The translations under genes and the position numbers were made by a program. A DNA stretch of 64,000 bases from an uncultured Spirochaetaceae bacterium (GTDB lineage Bacteria; Spirochaetota; Spirochaetia; Sphaerochaetales; Sphaerochaetaceae). Shown here piece by piece: positions 46,087-63,660 of this stretch (positions are counted from its first letter, which is position 1; every line of letters begins with the position of its first letter). The stretch spans positions 1 through 64,000 of the forward strand of contig CALXOL010000005.1 in NCBI GenBank assembly GCA_944390015.1, given 5' to 3'. The notes beneath the pieces were generated by a model. That model saw only the letters and a list, made by a program, of their open reading frames with translations, did no database searches and was not told the origin of the DNA.

Positions 46087-47868
46087 ATTCTGCTTTAATA
46101 ACTATGGCATCTGAATAGAGAACAGCTTGTCAGCAGCCTCAGAGGGCAGGCATTCAAGCAGCTTTGCAAGGTATTCCCTCTGTGTTTTGCTCACCAGTCC
46201 TTTAAGCTCCTTTGCCTTTTTCAGGTGTTCGATCTTCACCTTGGAGAATGTGATCTTGTCCAGGGATGTGCGGATTGAGTTGAGCGTCCACTGACCATCA
46301 AAGCCATCCATTCTCCTGCGTATCTCAGAGATCAGGATTGATGAGATGAACAGCGTGAACAGCTTTCCATCCATAGCCTTGGCAGAGTGGGTGCCAAGCC
46401 TCTTGGCATCCTGTTCGTTCTTCAGATCATAGAATGCCTTTTCCACAGCATCCTTGGACCTGTAAATCTCCAGAACCTCGCGGCTGGTGAGATCCACCTG
46501 ATCGGTCACGATTGCCAAGTAGCCTGCGTAATGACTTTCTGCGTCCTCAAGGGCCTTCTCTTTGTAGGAATAAGTCTTCTTCTCAACACCATCAACCGTC
46601 TCCACATTCATGTCGAAATACTTTGCATAAAGGGCGACATGGGCCTCGTTCCAGTCTCCTGCATTGAGCTCCCTGAAGCATTCGGCAAGCTTCATGTCCA
46701 GCTTCATCCCCCTCCTGCCGGCATCTTCGTTGTCGGATGTATAGACATGTATCCGGCAGGGCCAGTGGAAATCCTCATTGCTCCAGTACTGCAAAGATGA
46801 TGTCTTTGCATAGACGGCCTCTCCGTTACTGGTGACGATTATGTTGGACGGATGCCTGATCGATGACCTCACCTCATCAATGGCTGCTTTTACCTTGCCT
46901 GAAGACAGGGGCATGGCGACAATGAACTGGTAACTGAAGCTGTACATTGAATTTATGTTGTGCTTTGCATAGAAACCCTTGTCCATGACGAACAACATGT
47001 TCTTCATGTTGAATGCAAAGCCCTCCTTCATCACATGCTCAAGGGTGGAAACATCCCGGATGTCGCCGTCATGCACATGGTAGTAGAGCGGCAGCTTGGA
47101 TCCGCTGTCCACGACAAGGCCAAGATTGATCTGCGGGAGATCTTCATGATCCCTGTTGTAGCCGAACTCCACCATCTCGTTCTCCTTCGAGTAGGATGAG
47201 ATTGATGTTATGTCGTTGAAGCAGGGCTTGCCTGAAGAGGCTGTATTGCGCCAGCTCTTCAGGAACTCCTTCCTTCTTGCCTCTTCCATTGAGGAGAAAA
47301 GCCTGGTGATGTCCGGCCCCTCAAGACTCTTTCCCTTGATCGGGCTTTCATGATCCTCCTGCCATGAAGAGTACAGATAGGCGGCATTCCTGCCTGATGA
47401 GACATAGTAGAACGAGAGCGAGAGTATTGTGTCCCATGTTCTTGGAAATGCTGCTTTCAGCGTCTCTACAAGTTTGATCTCTGTCGCAATCCTCCAAAGC
47501 ACACGGACCATGCCGACCCTGTTCTGATCGGCAAGGCTGAGTTTTGTCTCCTCGTTTATCTCCGCTTTGACCAGATGCCGCCTCTTCGGGACCAGCTTGC
47601 CACTCTCGTCAAGCCTGCCGACATACTCAAGGCTTGTCTCAGCCTGTTTCTTCTCCTTGTTCCAGACATGCGACTTCTGGATGTATGCATATTTACGGCC
47701 GTTGACCTCGTTGATGTAATAGCCGGTTCTCTCGTCCTTTTTCATAGTTATTAATATTACTATGAAAACAAGAAACACACAAGCCTGTTTTGATAGATAA
47801 TTTCAAAAAATACATGGAATTAATCTTGAATGGGCATTTGCTGCATAGTTATTATGCCAGAATTCAGG
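46082..47868. mobile_element. IS1634-type insertion sequence
   Basis: A 1.79-kb element bounded by 25-bp terminal inverted repeats, 46082-46106 (starting CCTGAATTCTG) and 47844-47868 (ending CAGAATTCAGG), identical at 22 of 25 positions. It carries one transposase gene on the minus strand. No flanking target duplication is visible (left flank ...AGTAAAA, right flank ATGAAAA...). Both neighbours are truncated exactly at its ends, implying a deletion or recombination after insertion. Confidence 0.85.
46102..47745 (-). CDS. IS1634-family (IS4-like DDE) transposase
   Basis: This protein of about 547 aa starts MKKDERTGYYINEVNGRKYA with the N-terminal region typical of IS1634 proteins. The DDE triad is visible: first Asp in LGLVVDSGSKLPLY (about residue 220), second in LFVMDKGFYAK, and the Glu in YRSKDAVEKAFYDLKN. 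All three acids are present, so the enzyme may be active. ATG 47745 has no good Shine-Dalgarno sequence; the frame continues upstream to 47778. The stop codon lies inside the terminal repeat. Confidence 0.9.
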   Translation of the reverse strand: MKKDERTGYYINEVNGRKYAYIQKSHVWNKEKKQAETSLEYVGRLDESGKLVPKRRHLVKAEINEETKLSLADQNRVGMVRVLWRIATEIKLVETLKAAFPRTWDTILSLSFYYVSSGRNAAYLYSSWQEDHESPIKGKSLEGPDITRLFSSMEEARRKEFLKSWRNTASSGKPCFNDITSISSYSKENEMVEFGYNRDHEDLPQINLGLVVDSGSKLPLYYHVHDGDIRDVSTLEHVMKEGFAFNMKNMLFVMDKGFYAKHNINSMYSFSYQFIVAMPLSSGKVKAAIDEVRSSIRHPSNIIVTSNGEAVYAKTSSLQYWSNEDFHWPCRIHVYTSDNEDAGRRGMKLDMKLAECFRELNAGDWNEAHVALYAKYFDMNVETVDGVEKKTYSYKEKALEDAESHYAGYLAIVTDQVDLTSREVLEIYRSKDAVEKAFYDLKNEQDAKRLGTHSAKAMDGKLFTLFISSILISEIRRRMDGFDGQWTLNSIRTSLDKITFSKVKIEHLKKAKELKGLVSKTQREYLAKLLECLPSEAADKLFSIQMP

Positions 47869-48323: not shown

Positions 48324-49316
48324 CTAATTTCCTGTTAATTGTTTTTCCCATTTTAAAAGAGGTCGTTCCACATATTTAGTTTCTAACAGAGCAAAAACAT
48401 ATGCTAAAACAAATTTAACTATCCACCCACAAATTTGAATAAATAAATTATCTTTAAAATCTATGAACATCGAGATGATATAAAATGGTAACCCTGCACC
48501 AAGAAAAAAAGTAAAGCCTACTTCACTAAATTTGCTAAGTAAATCGAAATGATAATTATAGTAAAAGAAAAAGACAAAAATAGCGATTCCTAAATTATAT
48601 GCAACTATATATGCGATGAAATTATCATAAGAAAGTATTGTCGAAATTAATAAACCCACCTCAAATATTATAAGAAGGATAATGTTTTCTCTTGTTCCAA
48701 TATTATTTTTATCAACATAATTAAAATCAATACCAAGAAACGATACCGCAAACAGCAACATAAAAGCTGTCGGGAATGGCATTCCTGTAATTCTTCTTAT
48801 AAGTCCAAGGATAACAGAAAGAATCATCAAAACTGCTAAAACACAATATTTCATATTTAACTTTTCAGTGTTTCTTGTATATACATCAACACCTGTCATA
48901 CCAATTAAAATAAAGAAAGAAACCTGGATAGGAAGCATCCAACTAGCTCCAATTATGCAATCAACTCCTACGAATTGGTTGAAAAGAGTAGCATTGATTA
49001 ATGTATCGGTAATTGATACCCCCCCCCACTCTTTATTTACAAGATAAGGCATAAAAAGATGAGCAAGGTACGTTAAGCCAAGTATAAACCAATATATAGG
49101 ATAAATTCTAATTAAACGATTAAATATATATTGATTAGCTGTACGTTTTTTTCTTGAAGATAAGGCAAGATACCCAGATAATAGAAAAAAAATAACAACT
49201 CCAATTCTCCCAATAACAAATTTAAAAATTGCTCCTGAAACAGAATAAAGGTGACTAAAAAAAACAAGAAGAATGGCAATTCCTCTTAAACTACTAATCC
49301 AATATTGCTTTGTCAT
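48324..49316 (-). CDS. Acyltransferase-3 family membrane protein (probable glycan O-acetyltransferase), contains G9 tract
   Basis: This 330-aa protein has about ten transmembrane helices. The N-terminus YWISSLRGIAILLVFFSHLY carries the conserved RxxAxxxVxxxH-type motif of AT3 acyltransferases, which move acetyl groups across the inner membrane onto O-antigen or capsule sugars. The frame is intact through a run of nine G/C (49019-49027), which encodes WGGV; gain or loss of one base would inactivate it. AAGGATATT precedes ATG 49316. It belongs to the AT-rich polysaccharide cluster. Confidence 0.85.
   Translation of the reverse strand: MTKQYWISSLRGIAILLVFFSHLYSVSGAIFKFVIGRIGVVIFFLLSGYLALSSRKKRTANQYIFNRLIRIYPIYWFILGLTYLAHLFMPYLVNKEWGGVSITDTLINATLFNQFVGVDCIIGASWMLPIQVSFFILIGMTGVDVYTRNTEKLNMKYCVLAVLMILSVILGLIRRITGMPFPTAFMLLFAVSFLGIDFNYVDKNNIGTRENIILLIIFEVGLLISTILSYDNFIAYIVAYNLGIAIFVFFFYYNYHFDLLSKFSEVGFTFFLGAGLPFYIISMFIDFKDNLFIQICGWIVKFVLAYVFALLETKYVERPLLKWEKQLTGN
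49019..49027. repeat. Homopolymer C9/G9 inside the acyltransferase gene
   Basis: Nine consecutive C on the plus strand, in a region that is about 70 percent AT. It is in frame in this sequence. Such tracts change length by slipped-strand mispairing. Confidence 0.85.
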
Positions 49317-49463: not shown

Positions 49464-50714
49464 CTAATCTCTTTTAAATATATCTCTTGTATAAACCTTT
49501 TCTTTTACATCATCTAAGGCGCTGTCATAGCGGTTGGCTATGATTGCGTTACTTTTCTTTTTAAATTCATCAAGATTATTTATTACTTTACTTCCAAAGA
49601 AAGTGTCTCCATCTTTTAGTGTTGGTTCATATATTATTATGGTAGCACCTTTTGCTTTGACTCTTTTCATTACGCCTTGGATACTGCTCTGCCTGAAGTT
49701 ATCTGAGTTGCTTTTCATCGTAAGGCGATATACTCCAATTACGATTTCTTTTTCTTTGTTCTTATCCCAAGCATCACCCATTTCATAAGCGCCTGCGATT
49801 TCAAGTACTCGGCTTGCAATGTAATCTTTTCTTGTTCTGTTGCTTTCCACGATGGCCTCAATTAGGTTTTCTGGAACATCTTGGTAGTTGGCTAAAAGTT
49901 GTTTAGTGTCTTTGGGAAGACAGTATCCACCATAGCCAAATGATGGGTTGTTGTAATGAGTTCCAATTCGTGGATCCAAGCAAACGCCATCTATAATTTC
50001 TTTCGTGTTAAGTCCCTTCATTTCCGCATAAGTATCAAGCTCATTGAAGAAAGAGACTCGTAATGCTAGGTAAGTATTTGCAAAAAGCTTTACCGCTTCT
50101 GCTTCTGTGAATCCCATGAACAGGGTATCAACATTTTCTTTTATTGCACCTTCCTGTAATAGTCTTGCAAATGCATGTGCAGCATCTACAAGGTTATTAT
50201 CATTCATATCGGTACCAACGATGATCCTGCTTGGGTAGAGATTATCGTAAAGTGCTTTTGATTCTCGTAAGAACTCAGGACTAAATAGTATGTTTTTACA
50301 TCCAGTTTGTTCTCTTATTTTCTTTGTATACCCAACTGGAATTGTCGATTTGATTATGATAAATGCATCTGGTGCATATTGCAGTGCAAGATCAATCACA
50401 GTTTCAACGGCTGAAGTGTCAAAGAAATTCTTTTTACTATCATAATTGGTTGGTGTTGCAATTATAATGAAGTCCGCATCAGAATAAGCATTCTTTGCAT
50501 CAGTTGTTGCTTTAAGATGCAGGTCTTTCTCCTTTAGATATTTCTCAATATATTCATCTTGTATTGGAGATTTTCCAGCATTAATTAAATCAACTTTCTC
50601 TTGTAAAATATCAACAGCATAAACATTATGATGCTGTGAAAGTAAGATGGCTATTGAAAGTCCTACATATCCTGTTCCTGCTACTGCTATTTTTAAATTC
50701 TTGTAATCTCTCAT
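49464..50714 (-). CDS. UDP-glucose/GDP-mannose-type nucleotide-sugar 6-dehydrogenase
   Basis: This protein of about 416 aa shows the NAD site [20 protein letters not shown], the central helix domain with the catalytic Cys in [28 protein letters not shown], and the C-terminal UDP-binding domain. It oxidises a nucleotide sugar twice to the uronic acid, most likely UDP-glucose to UDP-glucuronate for surface polysaccharide. ATG 50714 (MRDYKNLK) is preferred to TTG 50726; the ribosome-binding site is poor (GGAATT). It is separated from neighbours by 147 bp and about 280 bp and may have its own promoter. Confidence 0.9.
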
Positions 50715-50996
50715 ATATAATTCCAATTTAGATATACTACGATATAATTCGTTTTTCTTTAAGTGTCTTTTGGGGACATCTACTAAACATTATTGTTTTA
50801 GAACAATATGCAATCTCCATAATCCGCTTTTGTACAAGACATTCGGAGCCTTTTTAGCTATCCCTCGATCTTACCATACAAATTACGCATCAAATTCAAT
50901 CTATTTTATTCATCGCTCAGCAAAGTCCATTTATAAAGAAAAGAGATACATAGTGGACAAAGAATGGGGAACTTATTGATGTGACGGTTATCAACG

Positions 50997-51263
50997 TCAA
51001 CGACTGTTCGTAATATTATCTCCTTCCGCCAGTTTATTTGATGGCAAGACCTGTACAGATAAGTGGCATCTGCATCGGTGGTAGTCTATCTCCATGTCCT
51101 GTCCCATCTCGCAATAGAGCGTCATGTCCTTGAGCCTCATGCTAACTCTTCCACAGATATGAACAAGACTTCCACAGTACGGACATCTTTTCTCTGCCGT
51201 ATTCCGCTTGCTTTCCAGATGAAGCACCAGACGCTTCCCGTCTTCGACTATTTCTGTGCTGAT
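50997..51263 (-). pseudogene. Remnant of an ISL3-family transposase (N-terminal zinc finger only)
   Basis: The frame reads ISTEIVEDGKRLVLHLESKR then CPYCGSLVHICGR and ends ...YHRCRCHLSVQVLPSNK, i.e. the zf-ISL3 N-terminal domain. There is no start codon in the first part and the catalytic DDE domain is missing, so this is a short relic. It lies in a gene-poor stretch (50715-51463) between two polysaccharide genes that otherwise shows nothing recognisable. Confidence 0.6.
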
Positions 51264-51463
51264 ATATTATAGGCTTGAAAAGATGGGTTGTTTGCTATAA
51301 TTTAGACAAAGAGTATGTGTTTGTCCGTCTGTTTTATGTGGTAACTAAACTTTATAACCCACATGCTCTTCTTTTCAATCTCTATTCCGCTTCCCTCATC
51401 TTTCCGAGAAGAACTGTTTTTAATAAAGAATACTCCTTGAACAATCATTTTTCAGAGAATTCC

Positions 51464-52566
51464 CTATAGTTCCTCGGATTCAGTTTCTTTTACTATTTTT
51501 TCTAAGTACTTATCCAGTTTACTACACGTAGATGATATTATCTTGTTCCACACCTTATCTAGTGTTTTCATTCTTATCTGATCAATAACAAAACAACAAA
51601 GATAAATCATAAACACACAGTAGATCATATAGACATACATATGCTCTAGATGATTCTGCAACTTTAGAATAAAAAACCAGATATTTTTTTTAAATGCTCC
51701 ATTATCATGAATCAAATAAACCGTTAAAGTCGAACTTGCTATAATATTTATTATCTTTGATTTAAATGATATCTTTGAAAAAGACAATAGGACACAAACA
51801 GCTGTAATTGTTATCAATGGACTTGCGTTACCTTCAAAATGTCCTACGTAATTGCTGACAACAGGAATAAAGTTAGATACATATTCCAATGCAAAACGCA
51901 AGCAAATTAGCATAATAAAACATACAAGTCCTATGGTTTTAATTGGCAAATTTGAAATCCTATCTTTATTGAATTCAACATAGTCTCCAATGAAAACAAT
52001 GTATATTCCGAATGTAATTCCACTATAATATGCAGCAGACGGAGTGATAAAACCAAATAGACCCAATAATATAAAAAGTACAAAAATAAAAATACTATAT
52101 TTTTGGGGTCTCTTTCTGAAATATATTGCAGCATTCTGAATAAAAGGGCCAAGCATATAAACAGCAAAGTATGCTGTGACGAACCAATTCATATTTGATG
52201 ATATCGGAAAAAGCTGTTTTAAATTCGTAACAGTATCTCTTTGCCCATATATAGTTATATTAACTAAAAGCAATGACCAATTTATGAATAAAATCTGACC
52301 AAGCAGTATCATTAACCGCTTAAAAGTAAAATGGTACTTAACAAGAAACCAACCAGTAAGCAAAAAGAAAACATTATTTGATATTTTAGCTAAAAGTCCG
52401 CTTATTTCACTTGCAAACCAAAATACGGGGGGGGGGCGAATGAAAGCTGCCTAATACCATGCAAAAAATAGTGAAAAGAAATTATTGTCATCATTGCAAT
52501 AATTCTCAGCAACTCAAAGCTGCTATTTCTCTTATTATAACGATTGTCTTCATAATCAATCTTCAT
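51464..52566 (-). CDS. Acyltransferase-3 family protein, frameshifted at a C10 tract (probably phase-variable, OFF)
   Basis: ATG 52566 (AAGGAAGG upstream) opens MKIDYEDNRYNKRNSSFELL and continues RIIAMMTIISFHYFLHGIRQ, a typical AT3 start. At a run of ten C on the coding strand (52427-52436) the frame shifts and ends soon after. The main body (VFWFASEISGLLAKISNNVF, then LTGWFLVKYHF through 51464) is in another frame that would be joined if the run were 8 or 11. There are no other lesions, so this looks like a switch and not decay. In the ON state it would be a membrane acyltransferase of about 367 aa. Confidence 0.82.
52427..52436. repeat. Homopolymer G10/C10 contingency tract
   Basis: Ten G on the plus strand within about codons 44-47 of the acyltransferase gene, in very AT-rich DNA. 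Eight or eleven bases restore the frame. Confidence 0.88.
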
Positions 52567-53100
52567 AAAAATATATCCTTCCTTGCATAAATTTTATCTT
52601 ATCTTTATTAAAATGATTATCTTATTTAGTAATAAGTGATCTAATTCTACCTAAATTAAAGCATACTTAATTTTAAAGCTATTTTTGAGTAAAGTCATAC
52701 ATTAAGCAATTACTAACATCAATTCTTCGTTTTTGAAAATAAAAACAATCACAGATAGGCTTCTTTTCAAGGTGAATGTCCTGGGTATAATTTACAATTT
52801 ACCTTCATACAGATGTACTCTTAAAATAATTATTTTGCCACTCATAAGGCATCTATAATCACCTACCATGATAAAACTCTGGTTAATTTTAGCCTTGAAT
52901 TAAAACGTTATAGACATATATCTTAAAAAAGTATATGTACGCCACATGGAAATGAACCGAACTATGATTAGAGTTAAAAGTCCAACCATCTTTATGTAGT
53001 GCATAAAGAATACCCCTCTGCACATAAAATATGTTATGCAATAGTTCTTTTTTACCTCTTTTTGTAATCTTATACCAGTATTTCGATAAGAGGCTAAGAT
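52567..53100. other. Intergenic, AT-rich, no gene recognised
   Basis: About 530 bp. A minus-strand frame of some 65 codons without a convincing start (about 52910-53098) is visible but has no recognisable similarity. No RNA gene or clear terminator seen. Confidence 0.4.
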
Positions 53101-54132
53101 TTATTTTTGAAGCGTATTGAAGCTATTTATTAATCTTTTTCCTAATAGTAGAAATTCCCTAGGTAAGACTATCTTAATACCTCTTTTTATGGCTTTTAAT
53201 AGTCGCTCAGTTTTGGAAAAAGATTTTTTTATTGCACTATGGAGATTATAATTATTAAAACTGTCTATAAAAACTGGATAATGTTTGTCTTTTATCTTTT
53301 GTTCGTTAATGAGCCGATTATTTTTCATTGCGAAATCAATATTAGTTTCATTTACTGTGCAAATATCTCTAATTGCATTTATCAAAGCCTCCCCTTTATC
53401 TGTTCTGACAAAGGCTACGGAAACACCCATATCATTCCATTCTTTTAGGTTCGCTTTCGTAATGCCCCAGTAATCACCAATAGTAATATCGCTTTTATGA
53501 TTGACGCTTTTGAACTTGCATTTATAACAACAAGGACGAGACATGATAGAAAATGCGATTCCATAATCAGTATCATAAAAAGGCTTCATGTAAATCTTCT
53601 TGTTTTCAAATTCTGCGCGAAGGTATATAGGCATCCATTTTCCATTTTTCTTGTATCGGACAGAAAAATCAATTAGTTTAGATCTATACTTTTTTTCTAA
53701 AGCAGTAAGATATTCATCTGCAACTTTCTTTATCGTTGGCCCATGACAAATTAAATCAATACAATAAAGTTTCTGATATTCCTTCGTTAAATAACTTTTG
53801 ATTGCTCCAATATCGCAAGGAAGCCCTATAACAAGAACAGTTAAACCAGACTCCAAATCTTGCTTGAGCCTTTCATATAAGTTAAAATTATCATAGATTT
53901 TCTTTGATTCAACATATTTTGATCCTTGAAACCTCGATATTTCTTCAAACGTTGTAGCTCTGGCCCATTCTCCTTGCCTGAAATCAGACGAATAGCGAAC
54001 CGAATATACGATGTTTCCTTTTTTTATAAAGCTATAGGCAAAAGAATAGGCAAAACCGCCTGAAGCTGATTTTACAAGCCTACTTTTATCATTAATATAT
54101 CCAGAGTATGCTTTCTGTACACCATGTAGCAT
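53101..54132 (-). CDS. FrhB-type (F420 hydrogenase/dehydrogenase beta subunit-like) polysaccharide-cluster protein
   Basis: This protein of about 343 aa has the FrhB N- and C-terminal domain features: VKSASGGFAYSFAYSFIKKG, VIGLPCDIGAIKSYL, DLICHGPTIKKV, and a cysteine pair region RPCCYKCKF followed by SDITIGDYWGI. The usual N-terminal 2[4Fe-4S] ferredoxin domain is absent; only the C-terminal cysteines remain. Such proteins are frequent in polysaccharide loci beside pyruvyl-transferase-family proteins, as here, and are thought to act in sugar redox or pyruvylation chemistry. ATG 54132 follows GGAGG; GTG 54144 is an alternative. Confidence 0.8.
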   Translation of the reverse strand: MLHGVQKAYSGYINDKSRLVKSASGGFAYSFAYSFIKKGNIVYSVRYSSDFRQGEWARATTFEEISRFQGSKYVESKKIYDNFNLYERLKQDLESGLTVLVIGLPCDIGAIKSYLTKEYQKLYCIDLICHGPTIKKVADEYLTALEKKYRSKLIDFSVRYKKNGKWMPIYLRAEFENKKIYMKPFYDTDYGIAFSIMSRPCCYKCKFKSVNHKSDITIGDYWGITKANLKEWNDMGVSVAFVRTDKGEALINAIRDICTVNETNIDFAMKNNRLINEQKIKDKHYPVFIDSFNNYNLHSAIKKSFSKTERLLKAIKRGIKIVLPREFLLLGKRLINSFNTLQK

Positions 54133-54854
54133 GCCATCCTCCACCCTAAAATATAATTGTTATTATTTAGCACCAAACAAAGAAATCTACCAGCATTTCA
54201 TTTATATTGGAATATATTATACGGTACAAATCTGTCAATCTCTCGCCCCCCACATTGTGACAATTCCCGATATTTTAATTCCATAATATCGTTTTACAGG
54301 CACGAAGCCTCCGCATAAAATAGAGCATTATATTACCTCTCCATGTTGAAGTAAAATCACTCCTATTTCATCCAGCTGAAAAATACAGTGCAAGAATAGT
54401 AGGTTTTATACTCAGGACAATCATAATACTTGAAAAAACTTTTCCACATAAAAACAAGAAACAGATTCTGCTCGCATTCTGAAGTACAATTAACTATTAA
54501 GATAACAAATTACATTCTAAGACTGTTCCCGTACAGAGGTTGTAAGTCCTCTTTATATTGTGCATCTTTTTATCGTTTCATTCTACGAAGCCTACAGATT
54601 TCTCAAAATTACAGTATAAGCACAAGGTTTGTTTCCTTTTGAATTTTTATAATATGAGCATATATACCAACTCAGCTATGCTACACTTTTCTTAAAAATC
54701 TATAAGCATTAATGCTATTGAGCAGTCAACCGCATTCTCCCATCATTTTCATTTATTTGATGGATTTAACTTCTAACTTATATCTCTTCCTCAATATCAG
54801 AGCCCAGAGAGCAAACGGAATATCTTTATTAATACCTCAAAATCATAAACTATT
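54133..54854. other. Intergenic, AT-rich, no gene recognised
   Basis: About 720 bp with many stops in all frames and only short open stretches. It includes a C6 run at about 54246 that does not lie in a gene. Could hold the decayed remains of a gene; I cannot identify any. Confidence 0.4.
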
Positions 54855-56021
54855 TTAATTTATAACCGTAAAATTTTGTATGTTAGAACTATCTTTCACG
54901 GCTAAAGATTCTAATAACCATTTTTGCGAATCGTTTCGATATTTCACAATTTCTTCATTAATCGTTCTCCACTTAGTAGAATCGATAAGTAGAGTTGCTT
55001 TATTAAAACTGTAATTATTATCTATAATTCGATCATCTAGGCCCAATAAATATGCTAAATCTTCTATTCTGGAATTTTGTGATTTTTTTGAATTATCCAA
55101 AAATCTTTTAAAAATAAAAAAAGATTTATTAAAGAGTATAGAAAATGCCATGGCATGAAAAGAATCTGTTAAAATAAGTTTTGAATTATATATATATTCT
55201 AACCATTCCTTTGGCCCTATTATTTTATCGACACCTTTACCTTTTGACCATCCCCAATAATTTGTAGGAATAGTTTTTATTTCCACCCCCAACAAACTCG
55301 ACATTTTATCAGCAATTACTATATACTCCGGATTATCTCCTAGATAATAGCAAAGAATATAATCATTTTCTTTTGTTTGAAGGTTTAATTTTGTCCTGTA
55401 TTCCTCTTTTGTCAAAAGAAATACTGGATCACAAACAACTGATACAGGACTATTTACGAGTGGTTGTACAAGTTTTACGCCTGTTTTCTCTCGGACAGAA
55501 ATATAATCAAACGACTTCAATAATGGTCTTATTTTTCTTTTTTCTACATTGCTAAGCTTTGATTTTCCAATACTTGCAGCATAGGAAATTTTACGCTTAT
55601 CATCCGAAACAAAACTAAGAAAATTACATTTTTTAAAATATGCAGGATTCCATATTTGATCACTACCACATATATATGCATCATATATAGATGAAATTGA
55701 ATTCATTTCTTTTTGCGTGCAAAATACGTTCGTTAAGTTTAAATAATCTCTTTCAAATTTGCAAAATAGAATCCTTTTTTCTTTCTCTTCATCATCCGAA
55801 TAATATTTCTTGATTCTTATGTTTTCAATTTTATTTTTCAAAATATCCCAACGAGCTTGACTTGATAGAAAAAAACGTACTTTTTCTTTTGCATTAGGAC
55901 GATAATTTATGATTTCATTACATATGCCATACTTCATAAGAGCATGCTGCAAGGCAAAAGCCTGAAAAATGGAGCCATAATTATTAGTAAACCATGTTAA
56001 TGTTGCAGTATTTATTTGCAT
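54855..56021 (-). CDS. Polysaccharide pyruvyl transferase family protein
   Basis: This 388-aa protein matches the PS_pyruv_trans family: N-terminal TWFTNNYGSIFQAFALQHAL, YICGSDQIWNP, ISYAASIGKS, SVREKTGVKLV, VCDPVFLL and the later LTDSFHAMAFSILFNKSFF. Members ketalise or otherwise modify polysaccharide sugars with pyruvate from PEP, although many in mixed clusters with FrhB proteins have no proven reaction. AGAGGAATT precedes ATG 56021. Low GC and Asn/Lys/Ile-rich composition are typical of the locus. Confidence 0.85.
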   Translation of the reverse strand: MQINTATLTWFTNNYGSIFQAFALQHALMKYGICNEIINYRPNAKEKVRFFLSSQARWDILKNKIENIRIKKYYSDDEEKEKRILFCKFERDYLNLTNVFCTQKEMNSISSIYDAYICGSDQIWNPAYFKKCNFLSFVSDDKRKISYAASIGKSKLSNVEKRKIRPLLKSFDYISVREKTGVKLVQPLVNSPVSVVCDPVFLLTKEEYRTKLNLQTKENDYILCYYLGDNPEYIVIADKMSSLLGVEIKTIPTNYWGWSKGKGVDKIIGPKEWLEYIYNSKLILTDSFHAMAFSILFNKSFFIFKRFLDNSKKSQNSRIEDLAYLLGLDDRIIDNNYSFNKATLLIDSTKWRTINEEIVKYRNDSQKWLLESLAVKDSSNIQNFTVIN

Positions 56022-56379
56022 AATTCCTCTAGATAATGTTAGCCGATTAAAAGTTTAAATACAATGACTTATGTTCTTGCTTCTTTTATATAGAGCATTG
56101 CAAAAGTACATATGAAAAAAAAATAAGAATAAAACGAAATACACCGCATGTTATTCTATAGTTCATTAAAAGTTTAAAAAGCATAAACACATTGAAATAC
56201 GCCATCCATAACGCTTTTTGAGAAATTAAATACCTCATCGCACAAAATGTACAGGCCTTTCAAAGTTCCAACATTATCATAGTTGGTTCCACACAAAATA
56301 GTTAAAAAAAGCTTAGATTAAAAATAAATCTTGCAACAAACCATTTTCGGATCAACTACAAACAATATAATAATAACTA
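56022..56379. other. Intergenic, no gene recognised
   Basis: AT-rich gap of about 360 bp between the pyruvyl-transferase-family gene and the IS200 relic; nothing recognised apart from the relic's possible downstream end. Confidence 0.4.
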
Positions 56380-56815
56380 CCGGCTCAACCACGGACAGGC
56401 TAAACAGCTCTTTCCTCTCTAACGGCTCGCTAGCCTTATCCTCCTCAGGTGGGATCCTTATGTACAGCTCAACCGCTGTCTTGTTCCATCCCACTGTATC
56501 CACGCCTTGGCACCAGAAATCCCTGCCGCACCGGTACTTCAGGTTCGTGACCCTATCGAATATCATCAGGCTACTCTTCCCATTGAGATACCTCATTACG
56601 CTCAACACGCAGAAATTCGGCGGAATTGACTGCAGCATGTTGATATGGTCGGAGCACGCCTCCACCTCTATTATGTCTATGCTCTTTCTGACGCATAAAT
56701 CCCACAGTATTCTGCCTATCTCTCCATGCTACAATGGTAGGACGGTTTATTTTTATGTATAGCTAGAAGCTTTTCTAAACCTCGGCATGATACAGAGATT
56801 CTCTTTATACATGAA
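56380..56815 (-). pseudogene. Decayed IS200 tnpA relic (second copy)
   Basis: The sequence parallels the element at 6 kb, including the C-terminal part (VDTVGWNKTAVELYI, EDKASEPLERKELF) and the left end (ACCTCGGCATGATACAGAGA as a degraded hairpin). The first roughly 45 codons are missing: left-end DNA joins directly to the EIGRIL codons, with a stop just upstream. The HUH motif has become DHINM and the GYY segment is deleted, so it cannot be active. It lies in the polysaccharide locus in the same orientation as the first copy. Confidence 0.8.
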
Positions 56816-56832
56816 AAACCTTTTACTACCTA

Positions 56833-58389
56833 TTAAATGTTTTTCCGTGAATCATATTTAAAAACTTTTATACGGAAGAGTTTTTTAATTAAAAATTTAA
56901 ATTCACTTGTTTTAAAAAATACTATAGCAAAAAAACCATTTATTACTATAATGCAAGAAAATAAGAGGAAAATAAAATGAAAAAACGGATTGACAATTTC
57001 AACTATATTTTCAATTAATAGAACAATTACAATAGAAGTAATAGTTACAATTAAATATTTCAAATAAAGGAAAAAATATGTTAACAACTTTGCTCTGAAT
57101 CTTTTAACAAAAAGAAGATAAGGTTCGTACCAGAAATTAGTTGCAATATTGCTTACAAAAGTTCCTAACAAAATCCCTGTTATTCCTAATTGCATTGGTC
57201 CAACAAAAAATAAGGATATAATTATATTTATTACTGCTTCGCATATTGATTTCCAACGTAACTCAACAAATAACCCATAAGTATCTGCAAATATAAGAAA
57301 AGTGTTACGAATCAATCTCATATAAAGATTCAAAACAATCATCACAACTACATCTATGTCCATTAAATACGATGGCCCAATCCATAATTCAATAAAGGGA
57401 TTTATAAGAATAAACAAGCTAGCCGAACAAAAGCCAACTATCCAAAAGTTAACGAACCAGATATCACGAAAAAGGTCATATATTTTATTTGCTTTTTCTG
57501 TTGCTACTAAGTTACCAATACTTCCTGTTAATGCTTCAAAAATCTTACTGATAAAAGTTCTCAGCATATTTGAAAAAAGTGTATAATTAGAATATAAGCC
57601 AAGAGCTACAGTACTTACGTATTTAGAAATCAGAATATTATCAGTAGATGTTACAACGGCAGAACTTAATTTGCTTAGAAACATCGCTTTCACGTTTGTA
57701 TAAATTTGATTTCTTGTTTTTGAATCAACTTTAGCTTTCTTAAATTTCTTGAGATAAGAATAATTATGATCTACATATAATGAAATAGCGATATTATTCA
57801 ATAGTGTAAACAGTAATTGGATAAGTAAATACTGGATAAAATTTTGATAGGCAATTAACATCAGAATTTGCAATATTATTTTTAAAGTGTTCGTTAAGAT
57901 TGATATAATTGATACTATATCGCTTCGCTGATCCACAATGAGAATACTTTTTTTATAAATAAAAAAATAACTTCCCGTTGTATTTACCAAATAAAGAATG
58001 TAAATCAACGGAAGTTTTTCTAACGTTGGCATATCTGATATAAAAAAATCAAGAAATGGAGTAAGACACAATCCCACAACAGTTAAAACAGTGCCAATCA
58101 TTGTATAAATCTTCTTATAGAGATTTAATAGTGCCGATAATGATTCATAGTCATCTTTTGCCGCTGGCTTATACATGGAATAGATGATAGCCGTACCAAT
58201 CCCTAGCTCCCCAAGAGACAGAAGCGTCAATATGTCATTAAACAGCCCATTAATACCAAGATATGTTCTGTTAAGAGTAAATATGAATACTGTCCTTGAT
58301 ATAAAAGAAAGCAGGTTGTATATGATTTGCTCAAATAATGCTACACTTGAATTTTTAATAGATTGTTTTGTCCTAGATGTTGCCGACAT
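56833..58389 (-). CDS. Polysaccharide flippase (Wzx-like, MOP superfamily)
   Basis: This protein of about 518 aa has 12-14 transmembrane helices. The N-terminus IIYNLLSFISRTVFIFTLNR then TYLGINGLFNDILTLLSLGE is typical of O-antigen/capsule flippases, which move undecaprenyl-linked repeat units across the inner membrane. It implies a Wzx/Wzy-type pathway; no Wzy polymerase or Wzz is visible in the window. ATG 58389 begins 2 nt after the stop of the SDR gene, so the genes are coupled; TTG 58404 is an alternative. Confidence 0.88.
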   Translation of the reverse strand: MSATSRTKQSIKNSSVALFEQIIYNLLSFISRTVFIFTLNRTYLGINGLFNDILTLLSLGELGIGTAIIYSMYKPAAKDDYESLSALLNLYKKIYTMIGTVLTVVGLCLTPFLDFFISDMPTLEKLPLIYILYLVNTTGSYFFIYKKSILIVDQRSDIVSIISILTNTLKIILQILMLIAYQNFIQYLLIQLLFTLLNNIAISLYVDHNYSYLKKFKKAKVDSKTRNQIYTNVKAMFLSKLSSAVVTSTDNILISKYVSTVALGLYSNYTLFSNMLRTFISKIFEALTGSIGNLVATEKANKIYDLFRDIWFVNFWIVGFCSASLFILINPFIELWIGPSYLMDIDVVVMIVLNLYMRLIRNTFLIFADTYGLFVELRWKSICEAVINIIISLFFVGPMQLGITGILLGTFVSNIATNFWYEPYLLFVKRFRAKLLTYFFLYLKYLIVTITSIVIVLLIENIVEIVNPFFHFIFLLFSCIIVINGFFAIVFFKTSEFKFLIKKLFRIKVFKYDSRKNI

Positions 58390-58391
58390 AT

Positions 58392-59303
58392 TTAAAAGTT
58401 CCAATTATTACACCAACATTCAAATGTCATACCATATTTCACGGGTAATATCTCTTTAAGCTTAGAATCATCAAATACCGTATCACCACTCTCAATTTTT
58501 AATGCATTGGGGGGCCATGGCAAAAAATCAACTTTTGTATGATATATTTTCGCAACCAGCTCTGCCATATCTTTCAAGCAATATTCCTCACCTCCTATGT
58601 TATACACATCATTAATACATTTTGTGGACAACGCACCACCGATCAATATATTACATAAATCTCTCATATATGTAATAGTCCTTCGAATTTTACCGTCTCC
58701 ATATAGCTGAATTGCCTCGCCTTTTTTCGCTTTGCTCAACATAAACTCTGCTGTTCCATAAGAAGAAGTATTGGGAATCAATGTACCATATGGAACAGAT
58801 ATTCGGAAAATACAATATTTAATACCATATAAATTTTGATACTGTGCTAAGTATTGTTCGCACGCAAATTTATTCATAGCATAGATCGTTTTGAATTCTT
58901 TTTCATCCGATTCTTTTAACTTTTTATTCTGCCCTTTATAGATTAATCGGGTGGAAGGAAAGATAATTTTTGCTTTTGAGTTTTGTTTACGATATTCATT
59001 GAGTATGTTTAATAACCCTTTCTCGTTAACATCAACAAAGGAAGCATAGTTATCAAAACCGATAAGAGTACCAGTTTTCCCAGCAAATACAAAAATTAAA
59101 TCAGCTGAGAAATCTATATTTTTAACAGATTCTATATCAAGAATATTAACTTGCCTATAGTTTTTTTCTCCATCTAACTGTATTCCTCCGATATCACAAA
59201 GAAAAGAAGGAGCAATGTTAAAATCATTTTTTAGAACGTAAATAATGTTTCTTGCTATAAAACTATTTGCACCTATTATCGCAATATTAGGACTTCTATT
59301 CAT
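58392..59303 (-). CDS. NAD-dependent epimerase/dehydratase (extended SDR), probable 4-ketoreductase
   Basis: This 303-aa extended SDR starts NIAIIGANSFIARNIIYVLK (NAD(P) loop) and has the catalytic YxxxK in YAMNKFACE, the upstream Ser/Thr in IFPSTRLIY, and the sugar-binding VRDLC-like segment TITYMRDLCNILIGG. In this cluster the most economical role is reduction of the 4-keto group of the deoxysugar made by the neighbouring enzymes; epimerase activity is also possible. It overlaps rfbB by 4 bp (ATGA). Confidence 0.8.
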   Translation of the reverse strand: MNRSPNIAIIGANSFIARNIIYVLKNDFNIAPSFLCDIGGIQLDGEKNYRQVNILDIESVKNIDFSADLIFVFAGKTGTLIGFDNYASFVDVNEKGLLNILNEYRKQNSKAKIIFPSTRLIYKGQNKKLKESDEKEFKTIYAMNKFACEQYLAQYQNLYGIKYCIFRISVPYGTLIPNTSSYGTAEFMLSKAKKGEAIQLYGDGKIRRTITYMRDLCNILIGGALSTKCINDVYNIGGEEYCLKDMAELVAKIYHTKVDFLPWPPNALKIESGDTVFDDSKLKEILPVKYGMTFECWCNNWNF

Positions 59304-60304
59304 ATCTCTGTAATTTTCCTATAGTCCCCAGAAAGAATTTCTTTCCACCATTTTCCATTATCTAAATACCACTGAATAGTTCTTTGGATTCCATCTGAGA
59401 ATGTTGTTTCAGGGAACCATCCAAGAGTCGAATAAATTTTCTCTGGATTAATTGCATATCGTAAATCATGCCCTTTCCTATCTGTTACATATTCAATTAA
59501 AGATTCTGGCTTTTTCAAATAAAAACAAATTAATTTTACTATATCAATATTTTTCATTTCATTATGACCGCCAATATTATAAATTTCTCCAATTTTTCCT
59601 TTATGAATTATCAAATCAATTGCTTTACAGTGGTCTTCAACGTAAAGCCAATCTCTTACATTTACTCCTTGCCCATATACAGGAAGCATTTTATCTTGAA
59701 GAGCATTTACGATCATTAATGGAATCAGCTTTTCTGGGAATTGGTATGGACCATAGTTATTACTGCATCGGGATATTGTTGTAGGAAGCGAATATGTTCT
59801 ATGATAAGCCATCACAAGTAAATCTGCACTTGCTTTTGAACAGCTGTATGGACTATTAGCATGAATAGGAGTATCTTCTGTAAATAATAAATCAGGCTGA
59901 TTCAGAGGGAGGTCCCCATATACTTCATCAGTACTTACCTGATGAAATCTAATACCTCCGAATTTTCTGCAAGCGTCCATTAAAACAGATGTTCCGATAA
60001 TATTTGAATTAAGGAAAATACTGGGGTTCTCTATTGAACGATCGACATGCGATTCCGCAGCAAAGTTTACGATAACATCTGGCTTCTCACTTTCAAAAAT
60101 CTGATATATTAAATTTCTATCAGTAATATCTGCCCTAATAAATTTGAAGTTAACATTGTTACTTAGAGGTTTCAATGTAGATAAATTACCTGCATATGTT
60201 AACTTATCTATACACACAATCTGATAATTCTTATGCTCTTTAAACATGTAAAAAATAAAATTGCTTCCAATAAACCCTGCACCACCTGTGACAATTATTT
60301 TCAT
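59300..60304 (-). CDS. rfbB: dTDP-glucose 4,6-dehydratase
   Basis: This 334-aa RmlB has the N-terminal GGAGFIGSNFIFYMF, the catalytic VSTDEVYGDLPL with the DE pair, YSCSKASADLLVMAYHRTY (YxxxK), the RCSNNYGPYQFPEKLIPLMI stretch and GHDLRYAINPEKI. It converts dTDP-glucose to dTDP-4-keto-6-deoxyglucose, the branch-point for deoxysugars. It is preceded by rfbA (3 bp gap) and followed by the SDR gene. Confidence 0.95.
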   Translation of the reverse strand: MKIIVTGGAGFIGSNFIFYMFKEHKNYQIVCIDKLTYAGNLSTLKPLSNNVNFKFIRADITDRNLIYQIFESEKPDVIVNFAAESHVDRSIENPSIFLNSNIIGTSVLMDACRKFGGIRFHQVSTDEVYGDLPLNQPDLLFTEDTPIHANSPYSCSKASADLLVMAYHRTYSLPTTISRCSNNYGPYQFPEKLIPLMIVNALQDKMLPVYGQGVNVRDWLYVEDHCKAIDLIIHKGKIGEIYNIGGHNEMKNIDIVKLICFYLKKPESLIEYVTDRKGHDLRYAINPEKIYSTLGWFPETTFSDGIQRTIQWYLDNGKWWKEILSGDYRKITEI

Positions 60305-60307
60305 GCT

Positions 60308-61201
60308 TTACCTCACACTGCTAATAAAAGTGCCATTTGCTACAGATTGAAGATGTTCAGAGTAATGTGATTTTCCATAACTCTTTATTGCTAATGTAAA
60401 TTGTTCTTTTGATATCCAACCAAAACGATATGCAATTTCTTCTGGCGCCGAAATCATCACACCTTGCTGCTCCTCAACCATTGCTATAAAATTCGAAGCT
60501 TTCAAAAGACTTTCTATTGTCCCTGTATCAAGCCAAGCAAACCCTCTTCCTAATAATTCAACTTTGAGTTTTTTTTCTTTTAAATATAATTCATTTAGGC
60601 TTGTAATTTCTAGTTCTCCACGTTTCGAAGGCTTTACTCTCTTTGCCATCTCGCTCACGCCTTGGGGATAAAAATAGAGTCCGGTAATCGCATAATTACT
60701 TTTAGGATGTTCTGGTTTTTCTTCTACGGAAATAACCTGGCCATCACTATCAAATTCGACAATACCAAATCTCTGAGGATCATTTACATGATATCCAAAA
60801 ACTGTAGCGATACCATTAGAGGCAGCTTCAGAACACTTTTCCAAATATTTCGAGAAACTATTCCCGTAAAATATATTATCTCCTAATACCATTGCAACGG
60901 AATCATCTTTTATAAATTCTTCTCCTATTATAAGAGCTTCTGCCAAGCCGTTAGGTGCAAGTTGGATTGCATAAGATATTTTTAGTCCATATTGACTTCC
61001 ATCTCCTAAAAGAGTTTGAAACCTTGGAGTATCTTCAGGTGTCGATATAATCAGAATGTCTCTTATTTTTGCTAACATTAAAGTAGACAAAGGATAATAT
61101 ATCATTGGTTTGTCATAAACAGGTAATAGTTGTTTAGATGCGACTTTCGTTAAAGGATACAAGCGAGTGCCGGCTCCTCCTGCTAAAATAATCCCTTTCA
61201 T
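60308..61201 (-). CDS. rfbA: Glucose-1-phosphate thymidylyltransferase
   Basis: This 297-aa RmlA has [47 protein letters not shown] (metal/substrate Asp), [20 protein letters not shown] and GFAWLDTGT. It makes dTDP-glucose from dTTP and glucose-1-phosphate, supplying rfbB. The 3' end of the oxidoreductase gene touches its start (61201), indicating a tightly packed operon. Confidence 0.95.
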
Positions 61202-62241
61202 TATATTCTCCGTAAAAATTTTTTTGGATCTGCAATTTCCTTAAATACATCTATCATCATGGCTTGACTTTGTATAGATTTGTAAGTCTCTTCTCTAGTA
61301 TTCTTGTCTATAATACAACGAATAAAATGATTTATGGATTTGAAAAAGCTATCGTCTGGAGGTAGTTCGATGATTTGTTCCTTATCGTTTCCAATTTTTA
61401 TAGTAGCTGTTGGAACAAAACCGGCTGGAGCTGTAAGCACCCGATTAGTTTTTAAAGATCCTTTACTTCCCCACACATCCAAACTACATCGATAGTTATT
61501 ATCCATTCCAAATGAAATCTGAGCAGTTTGCCCTGCTTCGTTAACGAGTGTTGCCGAGCCAAACATGTCAACTTCATAATTTCTGATATAATTCTGTTTT
61601 GCCTGTACGATTCTTGCTGTTTTACCTAGTAAATGACAAGCATACTTTATTGTATATCCACCTGCATCAAACAGTGCCCCACCTCCAAGAGCCTTAGAAT
61701 ATCGGAAATCTTTTTTTTCTCTTAAAGGGAAACCAAAATCAATACGATAAAGACGTACATCACCAAGCGTTTTACTTTTTATAATTGAATCGATCGTCTT
61801 TAACTGGTCATGGAAAGAAAACATGTAATTTTCATGAAGTGCTAAATTTTTACTTCGCGCAGTATTTATCAAATCAACGCTATCTTTTTCCGTCAACGTT
61901 GAAGGTTTTTCAACAAAAACGTGCTTTCCAGCCTGCAATGCTATTTTGGCCCATTTATAGTGAAGTGCAGGAGGAAGGGGAATGTAGATAGCATCAATTT
62001 CCGATGTTGTTGCTATATTTTCATATCCCTTAAAAATCTTACCGCCATAAGAAGAAGTAAATTGTTTTGCTTTCTCATATTCTTTTTCTAATATATTCTC
62101 ATCATTGTTTTTTCCATTAATGAAAAGATCTTCTTTAGCCGGAATACCCAACCCAACAAAAACAAGGTCAGGTACTTTTTGTAACGCAGGCATGAAACGC
62201 CTTAGTGCGATTTCTGATGGGCAAATTATACCAATATTCAT
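61201..62241 (-). CDS. Gfo/Idh/MocA-family oxidoreductase, probable deoxysugar 3-ketoreductase
   Basis: This 346-aa protein has an N-terminal Rossmann domain ([20 protein letters not shown]), the family motif HVFVEKPST with the active-site Lys, and [20 protein letters not shown] in the substrate domain with the H typical of the family. In clusters with a 2,3-dehydratase, proteins of this family (for example OleW-type) reduce the 3-keto intermediate of 2,6-dideoxysugars. It starts 12 bp after the 2,3-dehydratase stop. Confidence 0.85.
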
Positions 62242-62253
62242 ATAGACTAATCC

Positions 62254-63660
62254 TCACATATGCAAAAGAGACAATAAATTTCTCAATTGAATATTCAACA
62301 TTCCGTTGAATTGACAGAATTGATTTAAAGTGTTGTAAGTAAGATATATGTAATCATTTGGAATCTCCGTTAAATCTGACTCAAATATTTCCATCAAAAT
62401 ATTTCTATTCTCCTCATGGTAAAATCTGCCTCCTTCTTCTGATAAAACAACATTATTACATATTCCAATTTGCAATGCTAATCTTTTTCTAAAAAAACAA
62501 TCTACGTCGTTATCATCTTTTTCTGTATGCGTTGGTTCCCATTGTATCGAAGGACCAAGCTCTGCGATATCAAATGATCCTATCTCAGGCTTTATCCGCA
62601 CAAGAAACTTGATTGTATCTTTATATCGTTTATATATTAGAGCAAAAAGCGCTTTCTCTGTTGCTTTGAAAAGGGGTTGCATCCATTTCCTAACTTCTCT
62701 ACCTTCTATTTCGATATTAAAAAAGCCAACAGAAAAATCAGCTTTATATTTACTTTGAATTGCAGTTTCACTTACAATCCAATTTTTCAATTCATATAAA
62801 GGAACTATTGATTTCTTCGATGTGTTGAACATCTTATAATTATTTAATTTATGCAAAGCTGTGACAACGGAGTTTCTTTCTTCTGGAAGAAAAATGGAAT
62901 TGTACAATTGCTTGTCGATAAACCAAGATGCAATTAAATCTCTGTGATTAAACAATGGAAAAACTGCAAATGGAATACCTGATAGAACAGTCCGGGTATC
63001 CATGTTGACAAGGTTATCAATCTCCATAAGCTTTTTTATTTGTCCAAGTGTCATCCATTTGTAATTATCGGGGATTGCAATGTCATAATCAATTAAGATA
63101 ATTATATTTCTATTTCTTTTTTGATAAAATCGACTTCCTTGCTCTGATTGTATCTGATCATATATTATTTCATTCTGTTTAGCGTGTAAAAAGCAATCAA
63201 GAAATAATGGTGCGTTTCCACCGTGTTTTCGTGTAAAATTACTTTTTGTAGCTTGTAGAGTAGGAGATATTTGAACACAGTTAACATTGCCAGGTTCAAT
63301 TTTGGCTTGCATCAACAAATTGACTATTCCATTAATCTTCTTGCAAATGATTCCAAGATATCCTATTTCTGATTGGATAATAATCGGTTGTTCTGTAGTT
63401 TTGTTGTTAATATCTTCTTCTCTAATACCAACTATCTCAAAAAAACTACCATCACGGTTAACTATTGCACTTTTGTCATAAGTATAATGCCAAAAAGAAG
63501 AATTCGTTAAGCAAGTTTCTGATATTTCTACAAATGTCTTTGCATTTAACTGAGAAATCCAAGAGCGAATCTCGTTCATAGAACTTACATTGCCATTAGA
63601 ACAAGACCAAGATTTTATAAACTCAAATGGGATATTAATATTGCTGTTCATATGTTTCAT
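62254..63660 (-). CDS. NDP-hexose 2,3-dehydratase
   Basis: This 468-aa protein has the duplicated structure of TDP-hexose 2,3-dehydratases (EvaA/TylX3/OleV): two halves each with a GRFYxxxNRN-type box (GSRFYQKRNRNIIILIDY and GGRFYHEENRNILMEIFE) and repeated VQISPTLQATKSN versus AELGPSIQWEPT segments. The enzyme removes the 2-OH from dTDP-4-keto-6-deoxyglucose, the committed step to 2,6-dideoxyhexoses. It overlaps the GT4 gene by 26 bp; ATG 63651 is an alternative start. This family is well known from antibiotic clusters and is uncommon in surface-polysaccharide loci. Confidence 0.85.
   Translation of the reverse strand: MKHMNSNINIPFEFIKSWSCSNGNVSSMNEIRSWISQLNAKTFVEISETCLTNSSFWHYTYDKSAIVNRDGSFFEIVGIREEDINNKTTEQPIIIQSEIGYLGIICKKINGIVNLLMQAKIEPGNVNCVQISPTLQATKSNFTRKHGGNAPLFLDCFLHAKQNEIIYDQIQSEQGSRFYQKRNRNIIILIDYDIAIPDNYKWMTLGQIKKLMEIDNLVNMDTRTVLSGIPFAVFPLFNHRDLIASWFIDKQLYNSIFLPEERNSVVTALHKLNNYKMFNTSKKSIVPLYELKNWIVSETAIQSKYKADFSVGFFNIEIEGREVRKWMQPLFKATEKALFALIYKRYKDTIKFLVRIKPEIGSFDIAELGPSIQWEPTHTEKDDNDVDCFFRKRLALQIGICNNVVLSEEGGRFYHEENRNILMEIFESDLTEIPNDYIYLTYNTLNQFCQFNGMLNIQLRNLLSLLHM

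Follow-up and report, generated by a model that had tools for sequence, protein, structure and literature searches.

Phase variation through poly-G or poly-C tracts is known mainly from pathogens, and the switching of reading frames by such tracts is known from Campylobacter and Neisseria. The genes oafA of Haemophilus influenzae and oafB of Salmonella Typhi encode phase-variable AT3 O-acetyltransferases, for which an R/K-X10-H motif in TM1 has been described, and oafB of S. Typhi is switched epigenetically (PMC9558356). In Campylobacter jejuni, homopolymeric-tract contingency loci, some of them surface-glycan genes, are switched by reading frame (PMC3025981, PMC3068675), and slipped-strand toggling of the frame is an established mechanism at loci of this type (e.g. 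PMC3025981). The spirochaete Treponema pallidum carries poly-G tracts of about 7-11 bases in the promoters of tp0126, tprE/G/J and tprL; the tract of tp0126 lies between the -35 and -10 elements, where the optimum spacing is 17, and transcription of tprE/G/J is permitted only at 8 G or fewer (PMC7864442). The gene analyzed here lies in a stretch of 64,000 nucleotides (the window) from an uncultured Spirochaetaceae bacterium. It resembled oafA and oafB in encoding an AT3 protein, with predicted acylation of a surface glycan and with R-X10-H in TM1, but differed from them in organism, gene cluster and glycan, and it contained a C10 tract inside the gene, unlike the epigenetic switching of S. Typhi oafB. 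Judged from the sequence, this tract is very probably a contingency (phase-variation) switch of the AT3 gene and one of a set that extends across the genome and the genus.

The gene was read from the minus strand. It started at ATG 52566 with MKIDYEDNRYNKRNSSFELLRIIAMMTIISFHYFLHGIRQLSFA and reached the C10 tract (52436-52427) after 43 codons, so that the upstream half (52437-52566) consisted of 43 codons and the first base of codon 44. Past the tract, the upstream frame encoded PPPYFGLQVK and then terminated. The downstream half of the same acyltransferase (51464-52426) was found in another frame, which was open from 5' of the tract to 51464 (328 codons from stop to stop), and the tract formed the frame junction between the predicted TM1 and TM2. 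The first-pass annotation had described this break, with an early stop and no other lesion, and had calculated that a tract of 8 or 11 C would restore the frame; all of this was borne out, but the remainder of the protein, correctly placed in the other frame, comprised about 320 codons instead of the 300 residues given there. The downstream half matched PF01757 (Acyl_transf_3) at positions 39-324 with 38.7-41.2 bits, which exceeded the Pfam cut-off of 31 bits for this family, and the upstream half matched it weakly at positions 2-26 (E 0.025). Both halves aligned in the correct order and with about the right spacing to the single full-length homologues L053 and L055, and in pairwise alignment the upstream half was 41-55% identical to their N-termini. 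The Pfam matches and this ordered alignment therefore established the split gene as real. A four-letter code word for the fold across the halves was dropped because the same word occurred elsewhere in frame, and the Pfam and pairwise alignments were used. The R-X10-H motif of TM1 was present 5' of the tract as R-IIAMMTIISF-H, and for the RXXR motif of the first cytoplasmic loop just the basic stretch KYHFTFKR was visible. The protein was of the stand-alone type, without an SGNH domain.

A homopolymer at the junction of two frames may also arise by decay, in which one frameshift, at a homopolymer present by chance, has inactivated the gene and erosion lies ahead. The relatives of the gene bear on this reading. 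The AT3 gene was absent from the other 35 members of the genus that were searched, which left no orthologous tract for comparison there; no orthologue with the tract was found in the 59 relatives searched or in viral contigs, and across 296 genomes of the phylum the searches returned distant homologues only. The tract comparison at this locus covered one genome per species. The only close relative found was L052, a 5'-truncated remnant in an "uncultured Spirochaetales bacterium" (CASFTW010000002.1), in which the 5' half was replaced by a transposase region and which thus had no allele at the tract position. Together with the third AT3 gene of our genome, which was cut by an insertion sequence, this remnant would speak for decay, since both suggest that AT3 genes are dispensable. 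However, no second lesion was present over the approximately 365 codons of the gene, and the downstream half showed a dN/dS of about 0.15-0.2 against L052 over 197 shared codons, with 40/15/75 differences at the three codon positions. These substitution data indicate that the now out-of-frame portion has evolved as a protein, under purifying selection. Decay also leaves aside that the C10 tract belongs to a non-random set of tracts, and we regard it as very improbable.

This set became apparent from the spectrum of C/G runs, which was compiled by pattern searches of the whole genome (G000; 2.19 Mb, 34 contigs). Runs of exactly 7, 8, 9 and 10 occurred 6, 2, 9 and 6 times, respectively, and none was longer than 10, which gave a bimodal spectrum. 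The 15 runs of at least 9 stood against 0.2-0.8 expected by a geometric tail from the 7-runs and 1.0-3.5 expected by Markov models of the window. For the AT3 gene itself, with a GC content of 0.30, about 2e-5 runs of at least 10 were expected under base composition. Codon usage was rejected as a proof of selection for the tract, since CCC and GGG occurred elsewhere in the cluster. The 15 long tracts were mostly located inside or 5' of surface and glycan genes, in a mixture of in-frame and out-of-frame states. Besides the C10 AT3 gene, tracts were out of frame in the gene for a Wzi-like outer-membrane protein and in two lipoprotein genes, one of them within the signal peptide. In-frame tracts were found in the second AT3 gene and in the third, which an insertion sequence truncates at its 5' end, as well as in genes for a sugar transferase, a glycosyltransferase, a PlsC-like acyltransferase, a large secreted protein and a membrane-anchored protein that is fused to an IS605-type sequence. 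The remaining tracts were 5' of genes for a BspA-like LRR lipoprotein, an LpoB lipoprotein, a sugar transferase and one gene without a Pfam match, possibly a phage gene. The tract of the PlsC-like gene (C7:85734) was not counted as strong support because it may be an ordinary Gly-rich motif. The genome resembled C. jejuni in having a set of homopolymeric tracts, partly in surface-glycan genes, but it belongs to a different phylum, and its relatives additionally carry a large class of tracts in promoter spacers.

Several of these tracts had features of their own. In the Wzi-like gene, which had a weak Pfam match, a G10 tract (G000:C2:53756-53765; L010:4257-4266) formed the frame junction and left the gene OFF. 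The out-of-frame lipoprotein genes contained G9 at G000:C3:42390-42398 (L011) and G10 at G000:C10:76832-76841 (L017). The membrane protein with an in-frame G9 (L015:3224-4444; G000:C8) continued directly into an IS605/Cas12f-like transposase sequence, a read-through that is perhaps an insertion fusion.

An error of sequencing or assembly, with a true tract in frame and a gene that is intact and constant, could also account for a single frame break, since homopolymers are the commonest site of such errors and some relatives showed absurd, artefact-like C runs of about 30-40 bases. It would leave unexplained the excess of 9-10-base runs, their placement in surface genes and the presence of a tract in all three AT3 genes, and a one-base miscall would still leave a tract. 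In addition, the contigs ended at insertion sequences, which suggests a short-read assembly, where a run of ten bases would usually be read well. An error is very improbable as an explanation of the locus.

The distribution of tracts within the AT3 family was informative for a further alternative. Exactly three genes of the genome exceeded the PF01757 cut-off, and each contained a tract, at different protein positions; the chance of this was about 3e-7 under random placement (15 x 1 kb / 2.19 Mb, cubed). The second AT3 gene (48324-49316, minus strand; PF01757 E 4.5e-13) was intact and had its own R-X10-H motif. It carried a G9 tract (49027-49019) in frame at codons 97-100, TGG GGG GGG GTA, which was absent from the first-pass annotation. 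Among other AT3 genes, a G8 tract in frame was found in L107 of the same genus and a C12 tract in frame in L055 (1574-1585), from another spirochaete family (G322). The C12 tract was at a different protein position in this distant gene, and tracts therefore arose repeatedly in the AT3 family. In this alternative the C tract would be a site of recoding instead of an ON/OFF switch: a programmed -1 ribosomal frameshift, or slippage during transcription, could provide some full-length protein from C10, because the required shift amounts to re-reading one C and a ribosome or polymerase could slip on CCC CCC CCC. Such recoding would be needless in the two AT3 genes whose tracts are in frame; the tracts of the three genes were at different places, no conserved slippery site was present, and the promoter-spacer tracts of the relatives are not translated. 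Recoding is the least probable of the alternatives considered. Any of the three alternatives, error, decay or recoding, could apply to a single tract, but none of them explains the set of tracts. A contingency switch is consistent with what was found at the locus, namely a simple repeat longer than chance at the frame junction, a gene that was otherwise intact and selected, and a genome-wide set of such repeats in surface genes. The contingency-locus reading, already put forward in the first-pass annotation, gained support from the bimodal run spectrum, the surface-gene placement, the tracts in 3/3 AT3 genes and the tracts of different length between identical flanks in the genus.

The AT3 gene was surrounded by a polysaccharide gene cluster (49464-63660, minus strand), recognized by its family content and by a GC shift. 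It encoded a UDP-sugar dehydrogenase, an FrhB-like protein, a polysaccharide pyruvyl transferase, a Wzx-type flippase, an NAD-dependent epimerase, a GDP-Man-dehydratase/RmlB-like dehydratase, a sugar nucleotidyltransferase, a Gfo/Idh oxidoreductase and an NDP-hexose 2,3-dehydratase, and two sugar transferases of the polysaccharide region were located outside the window. The AT-rich surroundings noted earlier were evident, the GC content declining from about 0.44 to 0.31 at 48 kb, which marked the low-GC polysaccharide region. Four of the 15 tracts were within this cluster of about 25 kb, which makes up 1.1% of the genome. A transposase gene was located at 46102-47778 of the window, and its last 77 bases also began contig C9 (G000:C9:1-77, L016), where the transposase copy cut the 5' end of the third acyltransferase gene of the genome.

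In the proposed switch, slipped-strand mispairing during replication would add or remove C, so that tract length would differ among the cells of a clone. In the sequenced state, C10, the acyltransferase would be OFF, truncated after TM1 and before the remaining membrane domain, and other tract lengths would yield the full AT3 protein. The probable role of the full protein is O-acylation of the polysaccharide whose synthesis the surrounding genes encode; the glycan as the target is suggested by the family and the gene cluster, and acetyl as the acyl group by the AT3 family. The benefit of switching may be evasion of the immune system or of phages. The C10 switch would belong to the roughly 15 C/G9-10 tracts of the genome and to a genus-wide set that includes poly-G spacer promoters. 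Length differences were seen at other tracts of the genus, and we infer switching of the C10 gene itself.

A C10 run was present in 32 of 36 genomes of the genus. Among 77 fetched tracts, an exact TTGACA was found upstream on the G strand in 32, at a distance of 9-10 bases in 27/32 and with TA after the tract in 28/32, and the other strand had an exact TTGACA in 1/77. The pattern TTGACA-N8-11-G7+-TANNNT matched 236 times, in 33 of the 48 genomes of the genus, with a few tracts counted twice where two choices of -10 element fitted, and the reversed pattern matched 0 times. The poly-G was thus inside the spacer between -35 and -10, typically in lipoprotein promoters (L027, L029, L034, L040, L078, L096 and L100 are examples), with the lipoprotein start typically 35-39 bases downstream. 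Among the 131 matches listed, spacer length peaked at 18-19 and the tract at G9. In our genome (G000), promoter-spacer tracts of this type with an exact TTGACA numbered 0, and the C10 tract itself was inside a gene. The layout of the T. pallidum tp0126 promoter equals that of the lipoprotein promoters of this genus, and both are spirochaetal; unlike the T. pallidum promoters, the C10 tract is inside a coding region and would act on the reading frame, and the gene families differ. Twelve flank families of the genus each occurred with two tract lengths, and three loci of one genome had common flanks with G11, G12 and G14. Identical flanks with different tract lengths indicate that the tracts of the genus change length over short times. 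The C runs at G035:C76:8089-8128 and G363:C200:3035-3070, about 36-40 bases long, are probably artefacts of sequencing or assembly, and several other runs were near contig ends.

A two-tier, random surface programme across the genus appears likely, with C/G9-12 frame switches in glycan and outer-membrane genes and with poly-G spacer promoters, up to about a dozen in most species and mostly of lipoproteins where checked. It would rank among the larger phase-variable repertoires based on poly-G, and as one not yet described for these bacteria. The poly-G/C slipped-strand mechanism is already known, from tp0126 and tpr of T. pallidum and oafA of Haemophilus; for the lineage, uncultured spirochaetes, no earlier report was found, and no literature linking Sphaerochaetaceae with phase variation was found. 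What the analysis adds is a tract repertoire spanning the genus, which would combine promoter-spacer tracts of the T. pallidum tp0126 design with tracts that act on the reading frame. Tract lengths can be tallied from metagenome reads that already exist, which would make switching in a natural host measurable without culture, and tract-bearing genes are liable to be mis-annotated as pseudogenes. Tracts within signal peptides, as in the L017 lipoprotein, were also present in the relatives L041, L048, L051, L062 and L087.
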